The notes under the pieces are model-generated. The model was not told the DNA's origin, ran no database searches, and saw nothing but the letters and a program-made list of their open reading frames with translations. The translations under genes were made by a program, and so were the position numbers. Shown here piece after piece: positions 42,132 through 50,557 of a stretch of DNA of 64,000 nucleotides. The stretch comes from Pseudomonas alcaligenes (lineage in GTDB: Bacteria > Pseudomonadota > Gammaproteobacteria > Pseudomonadales > Pseudomonadaceae): positions 1,493,001 to 1,557,000 of the forward strand of contig NZ_CP154874.1 of the NCBI RefSeq assembly GCF_041729615.1. The letters are read 5' to 3'. Position 1 is the first letter of the stretch. The number at the start of each line of letters is the position of its first letter.

Positions 42132-42207
42132 TGGTGCCGGAGACAGGAGTCGAACCTGCGACCTTCGCATTACGAATGCGCTGCTCTACCAGCTGAGCTA
42201 CACCGGC
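42132..42207 (-). tRNA. tRNA-Thr (anticodon CGT)
   Basis: A 76-base cloverleaf with encoded CCA. Acceptor stem GCCGGTG/CTCCGGC pairing region, D-arm AGCTCAGCTGGTAGAGC, anticodon stem GCATT-CGT-AATGC, T-arm CAGGTTCGACTCCTG. It marks the edge of the variable pilin locus, as in P. aeruginosa. Confidence 0.97.
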
Positions 42208-42240: not shown

Positions 42241-43272
42241 TCAACAACCTGTTACAGAGGCTTTCGACCAACGCCGCTCTCGACACCTCCGCGCCCAGGC
42301 CTCGACGCTATGGAAGCTCAACAAGGCCAAGCCATATGCCAGCAGACCACCAGTAGATATCACCACAAGCCAGTGCTGGCGGCTCTCCACCATATACAGC
42401 ATGATCGGGTAGTGAAAGAGATAGAGACCGTAAGACATTCGACCGATGTGCACCGGCAGCTTGTCGGAAAAACCTGCCTGCCGGCCCGACAGAATAGCCA
42501 TGATCAAAAAGGTCGTTCCGACTTCGGCCAAAGGGATGTAAAGCAAAAGGTGCATGAACTCGGTCTGCTCCGCAACGAGAGCGACCAGAATCGCCAGCCA
42601 GCCCAGCCAGCCAAGAGAGGCCGGTACAGGCCTAGCGCTACGCTCTTGCCACCAAGCACCAAGGGCCGCCCCCAACACCAAACCACCTGCATGAAGATCA
42701 GGACGGTAGTAGGCCAAGCTCACGACAATCTCGGGACGATGAAGACACCACACACGCCAGGCATACAGCCCTAGATAGAGCAGCAAGAGGAAAACCCATA
42801 AAGGCGGCCTACGCAAAAACCTTAAATACGCAAGTAAAGCAAGCGGCCAGAGCAGATAAAACTGCTCTTCCAGGCCAAGAGACCACGTATGCAGCAGTTT
42901 CTCCGGCAAAGTCCCAACGGAAGCAGCCAGATTGCTTATGTACAGCAGAGCGATCAGTAGATCACGTAGATGAAAGAAGTAGTCGGGCCAGAACAGGGGT
43001 GCCAGGACTACATAGAGCAACAGCATCAGCAGCAATGCCGGCATGAGGCGCCAAGCGCGGCGCATATAAAAACGCCACAGCTCGATACCACCACAAGTGC
43101 GCCACTCCTCCAACAGCAGAGAAGTGATCAGAAAACCACTGAGCACAAGAAAAAGATCTACGCCGATATTGCCGCCAGGCAGCCCGGGGGCATTGGCATG
43201 AAATAGCAGCACCAGCACAATGGCCAGTGCGCGCAAGCCATCAAGCCCCGCCACATAGCCGATAGGCGTCAC
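42241..43272 (-). CDS. Acyltransferase family 3 (OafA-like) membrane protein
   Basis: A 343-residue inner-membrane acyltransferase with about ten hydrophobic segments. It has the family motifs near the N-terminus: GLDGLRALAIVLVLLFHA, FLVLSGFLI, and the RRAWRLMPALL arginine pair. Such proteins O-acetylate or acylate surface glycans and, in some bacteria, pilin-linked sugars. It is the last gene of a four-gene operon and overlaps the ABC ATPase by four bases. The location next to pilin genes suggests pilin or glycan modification, which is inference. Confidence 0.85.
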   Translation of the reverse strand: MTPIGYVAGLDGLRALAIVLVLLFHANAPGLPGGNIGVDLFLVLSGFLITSLLLEEWRTCGGIELWRFYMRRAWRLMPALLLMLLLYVVLAPLFWPDYFFHLRDLLIALLYISNLAASVGTLPEKLLHTWSLGLEEQFYLLWPLALLAYLRFLRRPPLWVFLLLLYLGLYAWRVWCLHRPEIVVSLAYYRPDLHAGGLVLGAALGAWWQERSARPVPASLGWLGWLAILVALVAEQTEFMHLLLYIPLAEVGTTFLIMAILSGRQAGFSDKLPVHIGRMSYGLYLFHYPIMLYMVESRQHWLVVISTGGLLAYGLALLSFHSVEAWARRCRERRWSKASVTGC

Positions 43273-44162
43273 CCCAGCACAGCCTCACCCACAACGCTAT
43301 CGAACAACTCCTCCAGGGAGTTCTGCGGATGTATGTTGAGTAGAACGCCCTGCATAATCTCGATCTGCATCAGTACCTCCGCCAGCGCACGCCGTGGCAA
43401 CAACCCCTTCCAGACCTGCCCGGCATCGCGCTCGAACCCCGGCAGAGCCTCTGTCCCGAGATAACGCACGACCATGTTGCCTTGACTGGCCAGCAGCTCG
43501 GCTACGCCTTGCTGAGCGCGCACCCTCCCGCGGTCAATCATGACAAAGCGGTCGGCGAGACGCTCCACGTCATGCAAAATGTGTGTGCAGAAGAACAGCG
43601 TACCTCCCGCTAGACGATACTCCTGCATCAGATCCGCCACCTGGCGACGACCAACAGGATCGAGCCCCGACATGGGCTCATCCAGCACCAACACCTTGGG
43701 CTGAATAGCAAACGCGTGAGCCAGCGCCGTACGCTGCGTCATGCCCTTGGACAGATTGCGAATGCGTTTGTCGGCCGCATAGGCGATACCCAGCTTCTCC
43801 AACCAGAGCTCGGTGCGCCGCTCACACTCGGCGCCACGCACACCGTGAAGGCGCAGACCACTGCTCACCACCTCGCGCGGGGTGAGCTGCTCATACAGAT
43901 AGGGATTCTCCGGCACATAGCCCACACCCAGCCGCGACAGAGCATCCTCAGCCGGACGCCCCATCAGACGAGCCTCACCAGCATCGGCGCGCAGGGCGCC
44001 AAAGAGGATTTTGATAGTCGTGCTCTTCCCAGCCCCGTTCTGCCCGATAAAGCCAACGGACTGCCCCATATCAACGGAAAAGCCCACATCATCCAGAGCC
44101 TTGATGGACTTGCCCTTGAGCTTGAAGGCCTTATGCAGGCCATTGACCTCGATTACCTTCAT
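43269..44162 (-). CDS. ABC transporter ATP-binding protein of pilin-adjacent cassette
   Basis: A 297-residue ATPase with Walker A GQNGAGKSTT (about residue 37), signature LSKGMTQR, Walker B VLVLDEPMSGLDP, and switch histidine in FFCTHILHDVERL. The C-terminal 80 residues form an accessory domain. It pairs with the permease at 44992-45789 but is separated from it by the membrane-anchored accessory gene; all are joined by four-base overlaps. It resembles the CcmA/NatA/PilH type of exporter ATPase. Confidence 0.9.
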   Translation of the reverse strand: MKVIEVNGLHKAFKLKGKSIKALDDVGFSVDMGQSVGFIGQNGAGKSTTIKILFGALRADAGEARLMGRPAEDALSRLGVGYVPENPYLYEQLTPREVVSSGLRLHGVRGAECERRTELWLEKLGIAYAADKRIRNLSKGMTQRTALAHAFAIQPKVLVLDEPMSGLDPVGRRQVADLMQEYRLAGGTLFFCTHILHDVERLADRFVMIDRGRVRAQQGVAELLASQGNMVVRYLGTEALPGFERDAGQVWKGLLPRRALAEVLMQIEIMQGVLLNIHPQNSLEELFDSVVGEAVLG

Positions 44163-44995
44163 TGAGAATCCTGTCCACGGGTTAGGTGATCCGCCAGCTG
44201 CGGCTGCCCCTGTTGGTCGAGACTGTAGCCTATTGCCAGCGGGTCTTGCGGCAGCGCCTCCAGCCCGGCATAGCCCAGCAACTGTTCCAGGCTGGTCGGC
44301 GGGCGAGCATGCTGCTGGCGATAGGCAACGGCCGCCTGGCGCAACGCCGACAACCCCGCCAGGCGCTGCATGCGCGCCTGCAACAGGGCGCGGAAATTTT
44401 CATCCGTACTCTGATCATGCATGGCCTGCAGAATGCCCATGGCATCACGCGGGTCATCCCCGCGCTCATACCAGGCCGCCGCCATGCTGCGCAGCGCCGG
44501 CGCATTGCGCGGATGGCGCTGCGCCGCCACTTCCGCCCAGTGCCCGGCACGCGCCATGTCGCGCTCGAAGTACATGGCATTGAAGGCATAGTAGAACGCC
44601 GGCCACATGTCCCAGTCGCGCAACCTGGCGGCGCTCAGCAGCACGAACTGCCCGGCCTCGACCTGGCCGTTCCACGGCAGAATCGCCGCCCCCACATAAT
44701 AGTTGTCCTCGTGCCGGGGATTGAAACGCGCGGCATCCACCTGCAACTGCCCCTGAATGCGGTAGGTTTCGCCCTCAGTGATCTTGGCGTCCACCATCAG
44801 GCTGCGAAAAACATTGGTATTGGCTGCCAGAAAGGGGTCTCCGCCGGAATAGGCCAACTGCACCAGTAACGGCAGACGAACGCGCAGATGCTCGCTCTGC
44901 ACCTCAAGGCGCGGCTGCTCACGCAGACTGTAGCCCGCGCCGGCGAAGACCACCCAGGCCAAGCCGGCAGCAAGGAAGCCGGTCCACAGCCTCAT
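44159..44995 (-). CDS. Membrane-anchored accessory protein of the ABC cassette, TPR-like
   Basis: A 278-residue protein with one N-terminal membrane helix (LWTGFLAAGLAWVVFAGAGYSL), then a region without recognisable domain (VRLPLLVQLAYSGGDPFLAANTNVFRSLM) and a helical second half with TPR-like pairs (AFYYAFNAMYFERDMARAG, LRSMAAAWYERGDDPRDAM). It lies between the permease and ATPase with ATGA overlaps at both ends. Probably a periplasm-facing partner of the transporter, comparable in position to Myxococcus PilG. I do not recognise the family. Confidence 0.7.
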   Translation of the reverse strand: MRLWTGFLAAGLAWVVFAGAGYSLREQPRLEVQSEHLRVRLPLLVQLAYSGGDPFLAANTNVFRSLMVDAKITEGETYRIQGQLQVDAARFNPRHEDNYYVGAAILPWNGQVEAGQFVLLSAARLRDWDMWPAFYYAFNAMYFERDMARAGHWAEVAAQRHPRNAPALRSMAAAWYERGDDPRDAMGILQAMHDQSTDENFRALLQARMQRLAGLSALRQAAVAYRQQHARPPTSLEQLLGYAGLEALPQDPLAIGYSLDQQGQPQLADHLTRGQDSQ

Positions 44996-45789
44996 ACGAA
45001 ATTGCGCCGCTGGAAGATCAGGCCGGCCAGAGCCAGCATCAGGCCCAGGAAACCCAGCGCACTGAGCACAGCTAACCCCAACCCAGCCCAAGGCACTGGC
45101 AGGTCATACAGCGCCAGCGGCCGCCAGTCGAGGCGGGACAGATCCGGTAGCCAAACATAGGAATATTCCAGAACAGGCCCGAATATAGATACGTGCACCG
45201 GGTCCGAGCGTGCACTGCGCAGAAAATCCAAGGCCGGCCCCAAGCCTCGCGCTGCAATGCCAAAGGCGAAACCCAGCAGTAGCGGCAGAAAAGGGGTGGT
45301 CGAAAGACTGGCCAACAAGAGTGCAAAGGCGGCGATTACCAGAGCATCCAACCATATCGCCAAAATCACTAGCAGGTACTTGTAGCCCAACCCAACTGGC
45401 TGAGCCTGGACATAGCTCATGTCGCGCTGAAGAGACAGCCACAACACCACCCCAATCAGACACAGCGCCAGCAGCGCCAGCAGCGCCACAGTCAAAAAGC
45501 GCGACAACAAATACTGCCAGCGCGTAATGGGGTAGGCCAGCATGAAGTAGACCGTCTTGCGCTCAATATCCCGAGCGAACAGATCCTGTACCCAGAGCAG
45601 CACCAGGATCAGCATCACGAAACGCAGGCCGCTCAATCCCACATCCAGGGCAACAGTGACTGGTTGGCGCCCGGAAAAGCCTGACGCCAGGAGACTGACA
45701 GCCAGCACCAAGGCAGCCACCATCAGCAACACTCGCAGCCCCACACCACGAATGCCGGCTTTAACACCTAGCAGCACTAGCTCAGCCAT
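44992..45789 (-). CDS. ABC-2 type permease of pilin-adjacent cassette
   Basis: A 265-residue permease with about six helices, ABC-2 type (FARDIERKTVYFMLAYPITRWQYLLSRF is the conserved coupling region). Start ATG at 45789 with GGGGGTGGA upstream; a longer in-frame reading begins inside the upstream terminator and is rejected. It is the first gene of the permease/accessory/ATPase/acyltransferase operon, transcribed in the same direction as the pilin genes. Confidence 0.85.
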   Translation of the reverse strand: MAELVLLGVKAGIRGVGLRVLLMVAALVLAVSLLASGFSGRQPVTVALDVGLSGLRFVMLILVLLWVQDLFARDIERKTVYFMLAYPITRWQYLLSRFLTVALLALLALCLIGVVLWLSLQRDMSYVQAQPVGLGYKYLLVILAIWLDALVIAAFALLLASLSTTPFLPLLLGFAFGIAARGLGPALDFLRSARSDPVHVSIFGPVLEYSYVWLPDLSRLDWRPLALYDLPVPWAGLGLAVLSALGFLGLMLALAGLIFQRRNFV

Positions 45790-45810: not shown

Positions 45811-45841
45811 CAAAAAAAGACAGGCCACCAGGGCCTGTCTT
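45811..45841 (-). terminator. Terminator after the split-pilin pair
   Basis: Minus strand: AGACAGGCC-CTGGT-GGCCTGTCT followed by a run of seven T residues. It separates the two pilin genes from the ABC cassette, whose start codon is only 21 bases further on. Confidence 0.9.
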
Positions 45842-45860
45842 TCAACCTACGAAACGCTTA

Positions 45861-46301
45861 TTAGCGACCGCAACCATTGGCTTCATCGAGATCGATGCTA
45901 CCTTCGACGACTGCACTGGCGGCGAGATTCTCAACAGTCTTTTCCAACTGATCGCCGCACTGGGAAATGCTGCCACCAACGGAAGAGCCAGTGAACACAT
46001 TGTAACCTTTGTTGGAACCGGCGATGGCACCGAAACGGCTGTTGTCACCATCATCGATCACACCGAGCACCACGTTTGCGGAGATGGTGAAGTCAAAATT
46101 GTTCTTCACAAAACCTGCGCGGCTGGCAATTGCAGTCATAGTGCCGGCTTGAGCCAAATTGATCTCACGATCAAGCCCTGCAATTTCGTTGTAACCATCG
46201 GCCAGGGTCACATCCAGTCTTGGAGTACCGGCAGAGGCGGCAAACGCGGTGGAGCTCATCAGACCTGCGACGGCCAGGGAGGCAACGATAATCTTTTTCA
46301 T
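45861..46301 (-). CDS. Secreted pilin-head-like protein (candidate PilA-C subunit)
   Basis: A 146-residue protein with a Sec signal peptide (MKKIIVASLAVAGLMSSTAFA, cleavage before ASAG) and no class III prepilin signal. The mature part (125 residues) is small, Gly/Ala/Ser/Asn-rich and beta-like, with GSNKGYNVFTGSSVGGSISQC followed by a cysteine near the end (ANGCGR). The pair of cysteines 34 residues apart at the C-terminus resembles the disulfide loop of type IV pilin heads. It starts 19 bases after pilA-N, in another frame, with its own AAGGG site. I infer it is the globular half of a split pilin. It could instead be an unrelated periplasmic protein. Confidence 0.7.
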   Translation of the reverse strand: MKKIIVASLAVAGLMSSTAFAASAGTPRLDVTLADGYNEIAGLDREINLAQAGTMTAIASRAGFVKNNFDFTISANVVLGVIDDGDNSRFGAIAGSNKGYNVFTGSSVGGSISQCGDQLEKTVENLAASAVVEGSIDLDEANGCGR

Positions 46302-46320: not shown

Positions 46321-46503
46321 TCAGTTCGAGTTGGCGATGGCGCCGGTCAGGATGTTACGAGCATCGGACTGAGCCGACTTGTCATAGCCTTTAGCCTGAT
46401 AGTCCTGGAACTGCGGAATGGCAACGGCCGCGAGAATACCGATGATCGCAACCACGATCATCAGTTCGATGAGGGTAAAGCCCTTCTGAACTTTCTTCGA
46501 CAT
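46321..46503 (-). CDS. pilA: Short type IV pilin, N-terminal helix only (PilA-N-like)
   Basis: A 60-residue prepilin: leader MSKKVQKG, PilD cleavage before Phe, and mature helix [20 protein letters not shown] with Glu5 intact. The mature protein has just 52 residues and ends in [11 protein letters not shown], so there is no globular head or D-loop; normal Pseudomonas PilA has about 150. The region after Pro22 ([20 protein letters not shown]) lines up closely with Geobacter PilA-N, including Phe24, Tyr27 and Tyr32. ATG at 46503 with AGGAG 12 bases upstream. A sigma-54 promoter candidate lies upstream. The stop is unambiguous and the frame does not continue. Confidence 0.88.
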
Positions 46504-46742: not shown

Positions 46743-48455
46743 ATGACCATGAGCAACTCTCCCGTCCTGACCGGCCTTGCCAGGCAACTGGTGCTGGCCG
46801 AACTGATCGATGAAACGACCGCCGGCCGGGCGGTTCAACAAGCCCAGCGCAACCAGATCCCACTGGTCACCTATTTGGTACAAAACAAACTGGTCAACAG
46901 CACCGCATTGGCCAGCCAGGCTGCCGAGCAGTTCGGCGTCCCCTACTTTGACCTGAGCGCACTGGATAAAGATCAACAACCAAAAGACCTGATCAGCGAG
47001 AAGCTGGCGCGCCAGCATCGCGCCTTGCCACTGTGGAAGCGTGGCAACAAGCTGTATATAGGCATGTCAGACCCGACCCTGCAGCAGGCGGTAACAGACA
47101 TCCAGTTCAGCACCGGGCTCAACACCGAATTGGTACTGGTGCAGGATGACCGCCTGGATGCCGCCATTGATCGCTACTTCGAAAGCGACAACAAGACCAT
47201 GGAGGGTCTGGGCGACATCGATCTGGAAGACGGCCTGGAAATCGAGAGCGGGGATCAAGAACGGGAGGACAACTCTACCGGCGGCGATGCCGACGATGCC
47301 CCAGTGGTCAAATTCGTCAACAAGATGCTGCTGGATGCCATTAAAGGCGGGTCCTCGGATCTGCACTTCGAACCCTATGAAAAAGTGTATCGCGTACGTT
47401 TCCGTACCGACGGCGTCCTGCACGAGGTGGCCAAGCCCCCCATTCAACTGGCCTCCCGCATTTCGGCGCGCCTGAAGGTCATGGCCAGCATGGACATATC
47501 CGAACGGCGCAAGCCGCAAGACGGCCGAATCAAGATGAAAATCTCGAAGACCAAGGCCATCGACTTCCGCGTCAACACCTGCCCGACCCTCTGGGGTGAG
47601 AAAATCGTCATGCGTATTCTCGACCCCTCCAGCGCGCAGATGGGGATTGACGCACTGGGCTATGAGGAAGACCAGAAGCAACTCTACATGGATGCCCTGG
47701 CCAAACCCCAGGGGATGATTCTGGTCACCGGCCCCACCGGTTCGGGGAAGACGGTATCGCTCTATACCGGCCTGAACATTCTCAACACGGTGGACGTGAA
47801 CATCTCCACCGCCGAAGACCCAGTGGAGATCAACCTGGAAGGCATCAACCAGGTCAACGTCAACCCCAAGCAGGGTATGGACTTCGCCCAGGCGCTACGA
47901 GCTTTCCTGCGCCAGGACCCGGATGTGATCATGGTCGGCGAGATCCGCGACCTGGAAACCGCATCAATCGCCATCAAGGCAGCCCAGACTGGTCACATGG
48001 TGATGTCTACCCTTCACACCAACAGCGCAGCAGAAACCCTCACCCGCCTGCGCAATATGGGCGTCCCCTCCTTCAACATCGCCACCTCGGTCAACCTGAT
48101 CATCGCCCAACGACTGGCCCGCAAGCTATGTAGCAACTGCAAGAAAGAAGTGAGCATTCCACCCGAGGTACAGGTCGCAGAGGGATTTCCTGCTGAACGG
48201 GTTGGCACATTCAAGCTCTATGGCCCAGTTGGCTGCGATCACTGCAAAGGCGGCTACAAAGGGCGCGTAGGGATTTATGAAGTGGTTAAAAACACGCCAG
48301 CGCTTCAGCGGATTATCATGGAAGAAGGCAACTCCATAGATATCGCCGACCAGATGCGCAAAGACGGCTTCAACGACCTGCGCACCTCGGGCCTACTCAA
48401 GGCCATACAAGGCCTGACCAGCCTCGAGGAAATCAACCGCGTGACCAAGGATTAA
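46743..48455 (+). CDS. pilB: Type IV pilus assembly ATPase PilB
   Basis: A 570-residue extension motor of type IV pili. The N-terminal GspE-N/MshEN domain (about 1-150; MshEN folds can bind c-di-GMP) leads into the ATPase with Walker A GPTGSGKT (residue 330), Asp box (DPVEINLEG), Walker B MVGEIRD, His box (GHMVMSTLHTN) and the four-cysteine zinc site CSNC...CDHC (from about residue 463). ATG 46743 is used; MSNSPVL at 46749 aligns better with P. aeruginosa PilB as I recall it and may be the true start. Divergent from pilA. Confidence 0.95.
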   Translation: MTMSNSPVLTGLARQLVLAELIDETTAGRAVQQAQRNQIPLVTYLVQNKLVNSTALASQAAEQFGVPYFDLSALDKDQQPKDLISEKLARQHRALPLWKRGNKLYIGMSDPTLQQAVTDIQFSTGLNTELVLVQDDRLDAAIDRYFESDNKTMEGLGDIDLEDGLEIESGDQEREDNSTGGDADDAPVVKFVNKMLLDAIKGGSSDLHFEPYEKVYRVRFRTDGVLHEVAKPPIQLASRISARLKVMASMDISERRKPQDGRIKMKISKTKAIDFRVNTCPTLWGEKIVMRILDPSSAQMGIDALGYEEDQKQLYMDALAKPQGMILVTGPTGSGKTVSLYTGLNILNTVDVNISTAEDPVEINLEGINQVNVNPKQGMDFAQALRAFLRQDPDVIMVGEIRDLETASIAIKAAQTGHMVMSTLHTNSAAETLTRLRNMGVPSFNIATSVNLIIAQRLARKLCSNCKKEVSIPPEVQVAEGFPAERVGTFKLYGPVGCDHCKGGYKGRVGIYEVVKNTPALQRIIMEEGNSIDIADQMRKDGFNDLRTSGLLKAIQGLTSLEEINRVTKD

Positions 48456-48461
48456 AACAAA

Positions 48462-49685
48462 ATGGCGGATAAAGCGCTCAAGACCAGCACCTTCCAATGG
48501 GAGGGCAAGGACAAGAGAGGCAACAAGCTGAAGGGCGAGACCAACAGCACATCGATCGCGCTGGTGCGAGCGCAACTTCGCTCACAGGGCATCGCCGCCG
48601 AAAAGGTCAAGAAAAAACCCAAACCACTCTTTGGCGGCGCCGGCAAGAAAATCAAACCTATGGACATTTGCCTGTTCACTAGGCAGATGGCAACCATGAT
48701 GGGAGCAGGCGTTCCCTTGCTCCAATCCTTCGACATCATCGCCGATGGAGTCGAAAACGCCAACATGCGCACCCTGATCGAGAACATTAAACAGGAGGTA
48801 GCCGCTGGTAACAGCCTTGCCAATTCCCTGCGCAAGTTCCCGCTTTATTTCGACGATCTATATTGCAACCTGGTTGACTCAGGCGAGCAGTCAGGCTCTC
48901 TGGAACAGTTGCTGGACCGTATCGCCACCTATAAAGAAAAGACCGAAGCACTCAAGGCAAAGATAAAAAAGGCAATGACCTACCCGATCGCCGTGATAGT
49001 GGTTGCGGTGATTGTTACCGCAATTCTGCTGATCAAGGTTGTGCCGACATTCCAGGGTGTCTTTGCCGGCTTTGGTGCCGAGTTACCGGCCTTCACCATG
49101 ATGGTCATTCATATGTCCGAATTCCTACAGGCATGGTGGTTTGCATTCCTGATCGGCATTTTCGCCTTCGGCTTCGGCTTTAAGAAGCTTCACCAGAGCA
49201 GCGAAAAATTCCGCGACGGTATGGACAGGACACTTCTTAAACTTCCTATCTTCGGCGACATTCTCTACAAGTCTGTAGTGGCGCGCTTCGGTCGAACACT
49301 CGCAACCACCTTCTCTGCAGGCGTGCCGCTAGTCGACGCACTGGACTCTGTATCAGGCGCCACCGGCAACGTGGTATTCCGAAATGCGGTGAACAAGATC
49401 AAGCAGGATGTTTCCACAGGCATGCAGCTGAACTTTTCTATGCGCACTACAGGTGTATTCCCGGCAATGGCAACCCAGATGACTGCCATCGGCGAAGAGT
49501 CTGGTGCGCTCGATGAAATGCTAGATAAAGTCGCTTCTTACTATGAAGCAGAAGTCGACAATGCCGTGGACAACCTGACAACCCTACTAGAGCCCCTGAT
49601 TATGGCCGTGCTGGGCGTGCTGGTCGGCGGCCTGATCATCGCCATGTACCTGCCGATCTTCAGCCTGGGCGGTGTAATCGGCTGA
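48462..49685 (+). CDS. pilC: Type IV pilus inner-membrane platform protein PilC
   Basis: A 407-residue GspF-family platform protein: a leading soluble stretch, two GspF cytoplasmic domains (LFTRQMATMMGAGVPLLQS and ARFGRTLATTFSAGVPLVDAL repeats) and three membrane helices (about 170, 225 and 380). It links PilB with pilin insertion. It starts seven bases after pilB and overlaps pilD by one base (TGATG). Confidence 0.95.
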   Translation: MADKALKTSTFQWEGKDKRGNKLKGETNSTSIALVRAQLRSQGIAAEKVKKKPKPLFGGAGKKIKPMDICLFTRQMATMMGAGVPLLQSFDIIADGVENANMRTLIENIKQEVAAGNSLANSLRKFPLYFDDLYCNLVDSGEQSGSLEQLLDRIATYKEKTEALKAKIKKAMTYPIAVIVVAVIVTAILLIKVVPTFQGVFAGFGAELPAFTMMVIHMSEFLQAWWFAFLIGIFAFGFGFKKLHQSSEKFRDGMDRTLLKLPIFGDILYKSVVARFGRTLATTFSAGVPLVDALDSVSGATGNVVFRNAVNKIKQDVSTGMQLNFSMRTTGVFPAMATQMTAIGEESGALDEMLDKVASYYEAEVDNAVDNLTTLLEPLIMAVLGVLVGGLIIAMYLPIFSLGGVIG

Positions 49686-50557
49686 TGTCGCTACCTTCCT
49701 TCCTGGCCGGCAATCTGCCGGCCTTTGTTTTATCCGTCACCCTGCTCGGCCTGATCATCGGCAGCTTCCTCAACGTGGTGATCTATCGCCTGCCGGTGAT
49801 GATGCAGCGCGATTGGCGCCAGCAGGCGCGCGAGATCCTGGAACTGCCGGAAGAGCCGGCGCAGGGCACCTTCAACCTGCTCCTGCCGAACTCCTGCTGC
49901 CCCCACTGCGGCCACCAGATCCGCGCCTGGGAGAACATCCCGCTGCTCAGCTACCTGGCACTGCGCGGCAAGTGCGCAGGCTGCAAGGCGCCGATTAGCC
50001 CGCGCTACCCGCTGGTCGAGCTGGCCTGCGGGCTGCTGTCCGGCTATGTCGCCTTCCACTACGGTTTCGGCTGGCAGGCGGCCGGGGTGCTGGTGCTGAC
50101 CTGGGGCCTGTTGGCGATGAGCCTGATCGACTGCGATCACCAGCTGCTGCCGGACTCCCTGGTGCTGCCGCTGCTCTGGCTGGGGCTGATCGCCAACCAC
50201 TTCGGCCTGTTCGCCAGCCTGGAAGACGCCCTGTGGGGTGCCATCGGCGGTTATCTGAGCCTGTGGTCGGTGTACTGGCTGTTCAAGCTGGTGACCGGCA
50301 AGGAAGGCATGGGCTATGGCGACTTCAAGCTGCTGGCCATGCTCGGCGCCTGGGGGGGCTGGCAGATTCTGCCGCTGACCATCCTGCTGTCGTCGCTGGT
50401 CGGCGCCGTGCTCGGGGTGATGCTGCTGCGCCTGCGCAACCAGGAGACCAGCACGCCCATCCCCTTCGGCCCCTACCTGGCCATCGCCGGCTGGATCGCA
50501 TTGCTCTGGGGTGATCAAATAACCGGGACCTATCTGCAGTTCGCCGGTTTCAAATGA
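49685..50557 (+). CDS. pilD: Prepilin peptidase / N-methyltransferase PilD
   Basis: A 290-residue bifunctional membrane enzyme that cleaves and N-methylates prepilins and pseudopilins. The zinc-binding CxxC pairs (CPHCGHQ and CAGCKAP) and catalytic aspartates ([11 protein letters not shown], and [12 protein letters not shown]) are intact. It would process the short PilA here. Overlaps coaE by four bases. Confidence 0.96.

Follow-up and report, generated by a model that had tools for sequence, protein, structure and literature searches.

What does an ATP-binding cassette (ABC) system do beside a type IV pilin that is encoded in two pieces? The question is raised by a 64,000-nucleotide stretch of the Pseudomonas alcaligenes contig NZ_CP154874.1 (positions 1,493,001 to 1,557,000; hereafter, the window), in which genes for a permease, a tetratricopeptide repeat (TPR) protein and an ABC ATPase lie next to genes for a short pilin stem, PilA-N, and a separately secreted pilin head, PilA-C. 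We know of no explanation for the assembly of a pilin made in two pieces. The answer favoured here, with moderate confidence, is that the three genes encode a pilin-dedicated, ATP-driven machine for pilin maturation, similar to PilG/PilH/PilI (PilGHI) of Myxococcus, which at this locus is co-inherited with a split type IV pilin. Its observed basis comprises the coupling of the genes, a link to pilins across phyla, co-inheritance, a NosY-like permease, the ATPase motifs, a TPR fold and a GspG-like tail. The locus consists of the following elements.

44992 to 45789, minus strand: ABC-2 permease, NosY-like, 265 residues, core gene (ABC2_membrane_2, PF12679; NosY profile and fold matches)
44159 to 44995, minus strand: TPR protein, 278 residues, with an N-terminal membrane helix, core gene (family profile against TPR structures, E 3.5e-20; model)
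44195 to 44383, minus strand, approximate bounds: GspG-like segment, C-terminal in the TPR protein (profile positions 212-270 against GspG chains)
43269 to 44162, minus strand: ABC ATPase, 297 residues, core gene (ABC_tran, PF00005, E 1.4e-28; Walker A, signature and Walker B intact)
42241 to 43272, minus strand: acyltransferase-3 family membrane protein, 343 residues, GTG start, accessory (Acyl_transf_3, PF01757, E 3e-28)
46321 to 46503, minus strand: PilA-N, short type IV pilin, stem only, 60 residues (N_methyl Pfam, E 2.6e-11; translation)
45861 to 46301, minus strand: PilA-C, separately secreted pilin head, 146 residues, N-terminal Sec-type signal (translation)
45815 to 45843, minus strand: hairpin resembling an intrinsic terminator, with a U-run, lying between the PilA-C and permease genes (RNA fold z = -3.39)
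46743 to 48455, 48462 to 49685 and 49685 to 50557, plus strand: divergent core pilus genes, forming the near border of the slot (open reading frames, tblastn markers), which we take, from general knowledge of the families and from gene order, to be pilB, pilC and pilD
42132 to 42207, minus strand: tRNA-Thr gene, closing the pilin slot at its far end (ARAGORN)

An earlier note on this DNA had described the permease, TPR-like, ATPase and acyltransferase genes, in this order, as a single exporter unit joined by ATGA overlaps. The coordinates bear out the order and the length of the overlaps, exactly four bases at each of the three junctions; the motif itself is ATGA on the coding strand at the permease/TPR and TPR/ATPase junctions (TCAT at 44992-44995 and 44159-44162), but GTGA between ATPase and acyltransferase (TCAC at 43269-43272). 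Four-base overlaps are frequent in bacterial operons and, taken alone, are little proof of a unit. The window proteins match ABC2_membrane_2, ABC_tran and Acyl_transf_3 above the respective Pfam cut-offs. The TPR protein was present in 31 of 248 Pseudomonadaceae genomes, and the 20-kb surroundings of the 30 loci other than the window were read. All 30 carry the order permease-TPR-ATPase, with genes overlapping or at most 2 bases apart, whereas the acyltransferase was found in only 6, its four-base overlap with the ATPase gene being restricted to the species of the window. Thus, the conserved unit is made up of three genes, not four; the unity previously ascribed to the cassette holds for the trio, and the acyltransferase is a passenger.

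Within Pseudomonadaceae, the proposed link to the split pilin stands: in all 31 cassette-bearing genomes a split pilin adjoins the cassette next to pilB. The window pilin stops after the stem helix at about 60 residues, and the next gene encodes a head that is secreted separately; likewise, in 30 of the 30 relatives the trio adjoins a pilin of 56-63 residues and a separate secreted head gene, beside pilB-pilC-pilD, with the PilA-C counterpart (141-161 residues) following PilA-N in nearly all of them. When the same 248 genomes were searched with PilA-N, 30 cassette-bearing genomes ranked at the top, and the lower matches among those listed were frames of more than 100 residues or second copies in cassette-bearing genomes, except for G201, which bears the cassette and ranked below the top 30, and G124. 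Twenty cassette-free loci were read, none of which contained the cassette; 19 of them have longer pilins, the exception being G124, with a short split pilin PilA-N plus PilA-C (L062, 7665-8318). Two types of cassette occur in the family, their TPR proteins being approximately 31-41% identical between types, and both were found in the genus of the window and in one other genus.

The trio also shares its history with the pilin. Protein-distance correlations and partial Mantel tests were computed over 30 Pseudomonadaceae loci, and the distances of the cassette proteins correlated with those of PilA-N (r 0.74-0.78), PilA-C (0.57-0.62) and PilB (0.40-0.48), with r of only 0.17 between PilA-N and PilB. 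Given PilB, the partial correlations were 0.79 for cassette and PilA-N and 0.65 for cassette and PilA-C (0 of 2000 permutations each). Pilin and cassette therefore enter the pilB-tRNA-Thr slot as a single block, independently of PilB. This interval is a variable slot, whose tRNA-Thr border was seen in the cassette-bearing loci L033, L049 and L055 and in the cassette-free L080, with nadC and tRNA-Thr lying downstream of the cassette in the window; the cassette's location between pilB and tRNA-Thr agrees with the earlier assignment to the slot of the pilin accessory genes. A variable slot could also house an unrelated passenger, with a role in immunity or efflux for instance, carried along by the pilin alleles of a hot spot; a real passenger, the acyltransferase, is indeed present there, and G124 has a split pilin and lacks the trio. 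However, hitch-hiking in a hot spot predicts neither the presence of the trio beside pilins in several phyla, nor its three gene orders, nor its differing flanks, all described below, and we regard this explanation as very improbable.

Pilin and cassette are neighbours, yet they are probably expressed at unequal levels, given the hairpin that separates PilA-C from the permease gene. A comparable element was found 5' of the permease in 14 of the 30 relatives. The terminator scan missed the window hairpin, which folding reveals, and promoter and terminator scans were uninformative. The window hairpin may let the pilin be expressed at a much higher level than the cassette.

Beyond Pseudomonas, searches were made with profiles of all three core proteins, and those led by the TPR protein returned 9 of 369 genomes in a sample of the gammaproteobacterial class and 48 of 297 in the phylum around one deltaproteobacterial genome. 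The trio adjoins pilin genes in Desulfobacterota-type genomes, Nitrospiria, WOR-3, Mariprofundaceae and others, and occurs in three cyclic gene orders. In a set of loci gathered in part with a short-pilin query, and hence biased, all 47 loci with the order permease-TPR-ATPase and a pilin nearby have a short pilin (56-87 residues); the order ATPase-permease-TPR accompanies 22 long pilins (168-246 residues) and 6 short ones, the latter also adjoining a head-like gene; and TPR-ATPase-permease is found with long pilins only (134-175 residues). In a concatenated tree, all permease-first cassettes, from gammaproteobacteria and Geobacterales, fall to the same side of a bipartition, and the TPR-first cassettes group in a single clade. 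Of the 37 loci of one phylum fetched by the TPR protein alone, 26 have a pilin nearby: 18 long (153-246 residues) and 8 short, that is, split. The trio is thus a general pilin-linked ABC system and not a split-pilin device; the specificity for split pilins expected by the earlier note breaks down outside Pseudomonadaceae, where long pilins rule out a cassette exclusive to split ones, an outcome that the note itself had listed as refuting. Split pilins (60 residues plus a head of about 125 after signal removal) and most full-length partners (about 160-250 residues) are of large total size; the cassette may serve bulky pilins, a suggestion offered as a hypothesis only.

What kind of ABC system this could be was addressed through its proteins. 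The permease family profile matches NosY over its full length (E 1.1e-11), followed by the peptide exporter PmtD, with no polysaccharide permease among the PDB matches at E up to 1. In a fold search with the AlphaFold model of the permease (predicted local distance difference test score, pLDDT, 92.7), the 11 best matches were NosY chains, followed by PmtD, ABCA, ABCG and CcmB, and polysaccharide permeases were absent from the 50 best. Moreover, 40 of 49 permeases match PF12679 and 2 of 49 match PF01061. As judged by profile and by predicted fold, the permease is closest to NosY and not to polysaccharide exporters. The ATPase family, with invariant Walker A, signature and Walker B residues (alignment A4), is close to ABCA domains and to NosF.

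NosDFY acts on periplasmic client proteins, and the list of fold matches includes 7qba, the PDB title of which is the NosDFY complex with its client NosZ. The window trio shares with NosDFY a NosY-type permease, an ATPase close to NosF and a third protein that is presumed to be periplasmic, but it has a TPR protein in place of NosD and lies among pil genes, not nos or copper genes; it is not, by this comparison, a NosDFY member, but may work like one. It differs from the Wzm/Wzt exporters, which combine a PF01061 permease with a polysaccharide gene context. With GldAFG of gliding Bacteroidota it shares an association with motility, GldA being the second-best NCBIfam match of the ATPase and GldF a weak match for 3 of 49 permeases; however, the ATPase scores far below the curated GldA cut-off, a GldG-like gene is absent and the motility system is a different one. 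The word exporter used in the earlier note is therefore doubtful, since the permease is nearest to that of a periplasmic assembly machine and PilA-C bears its own Sec-type signal.

The third protein escapes single-sequence searches of Pfam, NCBIfam and PDB, which returned no family and only designed TPR proteins; its TPR nature lies below single-sequence Pfam detection, and the family profile was needed to recognise the TPR helices (E 3.5e-20). It has a single N-terminal hydrophobic helix, and its AlphaFold model (pLDDT 91.9) retrieved generic TPR matches only, the best being the adaptor NlpI at E 0.02, with no specific relative found in this fold search. The C-terminal segment resembles GspG (29jd best, E 6.4e-4, with several other GspG chains below). 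Two cysteines, at window residues 94 and 125 (alignment A2), are jointly present in one clade, 8 of 60 aligned members, and jointly absent from the other 52. Such a pair would be compatible with a disulphide bond and with a protein exposed to the periplasm; the bond was rejected as a trait of the TPR protein at large, since the pair marks only one clade.

To our knowledge, the mode of action of PilG/PilH/PilI has been unclear since 1998. In M. xanthus, the three proteins are needed for pili (PMC3724824; deletion phenotypes in PMC5544727) and are described as essential to move pilin across the inner membrane (PMC3724824), and PilH is presented as an ABC ATPase homologue in a passage of the former paper that cites Wu 1998. 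Homologues of pilGHI lie in the pilus clusters of Geobacter and Geoalkalibacter (PMC6060248). As in that system, an ABC ATPase, a permease and a third protein are encoded beside the major pilin gene in the window and its relatives. When pilins were scored against a Myxococcus PilA model, those beside TPR-first cassettes reached 108-129 bits in four cases and 78 bits in one, versus 52-57 bits for the other pilins tested; no match to the model above the cut-off was found, either in 14 genomes reached through loci or in a phylum sample. Provided that PilG corresponds to the TPR protein and PilI to the permease, the TPR-first clade has the gene order pilG-pilH-pilI. The window differs in its split pilin and in the cyclic rotation permease-TPR-ATPase, although order is not essential to function, and window-type and TPR-first TPR proteins share about 20% identity. 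The kinship with PilGHI put forward in the earlier note is thereby upheld: gene context and Myxococcus-like pilins suggest that the window trio resembles PilG-PilH-PilI. In the window's own genome, a second pilin-like gene (G000:C1:1568822-1569091), about 12 kb past the window end, scores 62.6 bits against the same model, and PilA-N only 51.7 bits.

The M. xanthus description could mean that the cargo which the trio carries across the inner membrane is a pilin, either PilA-N or an adhesin-like partner, with the trio helping Sec or standing in for it, and the peptide exporter PmtCD is the second-best fold match of the permease. Nevertheless, NosY is a closer match to the permease than PmtD is, and the head has a Sec-type signal of its own. 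Prepilins generally take the signal recognition particle/Sec route, which also counts against direct translocation, an explanation that we consider quite unlikely.

In Geobacter, too, one gene encodes a short stem, PilA-N, and the next one the head, PilA-C (PMC5174107), the two being 61 and 104 residues long (PMC11046646); the Pseudomonas head is larger, 146 residues before signal removal, and has no sequence match in PDB. With an approximate GSU1496 query (best identity 87% among the genomes searched), the trio was located within 16 kb after the GSU1496-like pilin in 18 of 20 Geobacterales split-pilin loci; in one of the other two, G726, the cassette lies elsewhere in the genome (L235). Several loci show exactly the order PilA-N, PilA-C, membrane protein of about 580 residues, permease, TPR, ATPase. 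In close relatives of G. sulfurreducens, the cassette ATPase is gene number six when PilA-N is taken as the first, the position that GSU1501 (xapD) occupies from GSU1496, also beside a split pilin. By this synteny, GSU1501 is probably the cassette ATPase.

XapD differs from the machine favoured here in its published role, the ATP-dependent export of biofilm polysaccharide (PMC4974642, PMC5585712), and the reported phenotypes concern polysaccharide, current and biofilm (PMC5585712, PMC4974642, PMC8683041). Accordingly, the trio might export a polysaccharide or lipid-linked glycan that decorates the pilus or anchors cells, acylated by the acyltransferase that adjoins the trio in the window; sugar-gene regions or polytopic membrane proteins of 540-640 residues often come next in Geobacterales. 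However, the profile and fold searches with the permease yielded no polysaccharide permease within the limits given above, the accessory acyltransferase is the sole glycan gene of the Pseudomonadaceae unit, and some Geobacterales loci have a second, Wzt-like ABC ATPase further downstream in the sugar region. Glycan export is therefore considered unlikely. A part in piliation is favoured by co-cultures that included a GSU1501 deletion, in which pili were difficult to see and pilus genes were expressed at lower levels (PMC9244359).

For the pilin-maturation machine, the following sequence of events is proposed. Two permeases and two ATPases would make up an inner-membrane core like that of NosFY, with the TPR protein anchored by its N-terminal helix and its body in the periplasm. 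The TPR protein would retain the pilin on the periplasmic side of this membrane, perhaps via its GspG-like tail, and ATP-driven movement of the core would mature the pilin or release it to the PilB/PilC assembly platform; in split systems, the Sec-exported PilA-C head would be brought to the membrane-held PilA-N stem. We infer the periplasmic orientation, the formation of a complex, the pilin as client and the mechanical step; action on a pilin at the periplasmic side is suggested by analogy with the periplasmic clients of NosDFY.

Several observations weigh against this model. G124 lacks the permease and the TPR protein anywhere in its genome, though its split pilin and PilQ are present, and either shows that the cassette is not strictly required or represents a strain that has given up piliation. 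No pilin was found within 7 kb in 11 of the 37 loci of the phylum sample. The link to M. xanthus PilG/H/I is indirect, made through Myxococcus-like pilins and the pilGHI homologues reported from Geobacter and Geoalkalibacter. The GspG similarity is weak (E 6e-4), and such C-terminal motifs may occur elsewhere. In addition, a Geobacter pilB mutant keeps normal polysaccharide (PMC4974642), and pilus loss alone therefore cannot explain the polysaccharide defect of xapD mutants.

A wider proposal, which we advance tentatively and hold to be possible rather than probable, is that PilGHI, the Pseudomonas cassette and XapD together with its two neighbours belong to a single family. Its members would be ATP-driven chaperones akin to NosDFY, bringing bulky or two-piece pilins to the assembly platform and, in split systems, mating head to stem; the published role of XapD in polysaccharide export would then be secondary or polar. 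The data suggest that the literatures on Myxococcus PilGHI and Geobacter XapD describe the same machine, with Pseudomonas as a third host that should be genetically easier, and bear on the question of whether pilus defects account for part of the impaired electron transfer and biofilm formation in xapD mutants. A NosDFY-like mechanism offers a concrete, testable model to replace the exporter. The earlier interpretation is thus partly supported: right on kinship and slot, too narrow on split pilins, and weak on export and the acyltransferase.

Other features recur around these loci. A polytopic membrane protein of 540-640 residues lies by the pilin or cassette in L270, L274, L275, L276, L280, L285, L091, L175, L176 and L239; some of these proteins look like O-antigen ligases, perhaps for pilin glycosylation. 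In L283, the place downstream of the split pilin that the cassette takes in other Geobacterales is occupied by an open reading frame of 3732 residues. Finally, a second, diverged short pilin-like open reading frame (59-91 residues) was found near the major split pilin in L040, L044, L048, L051, L052, L054, L056 and L134, possibly a second stem or a minor pilin.

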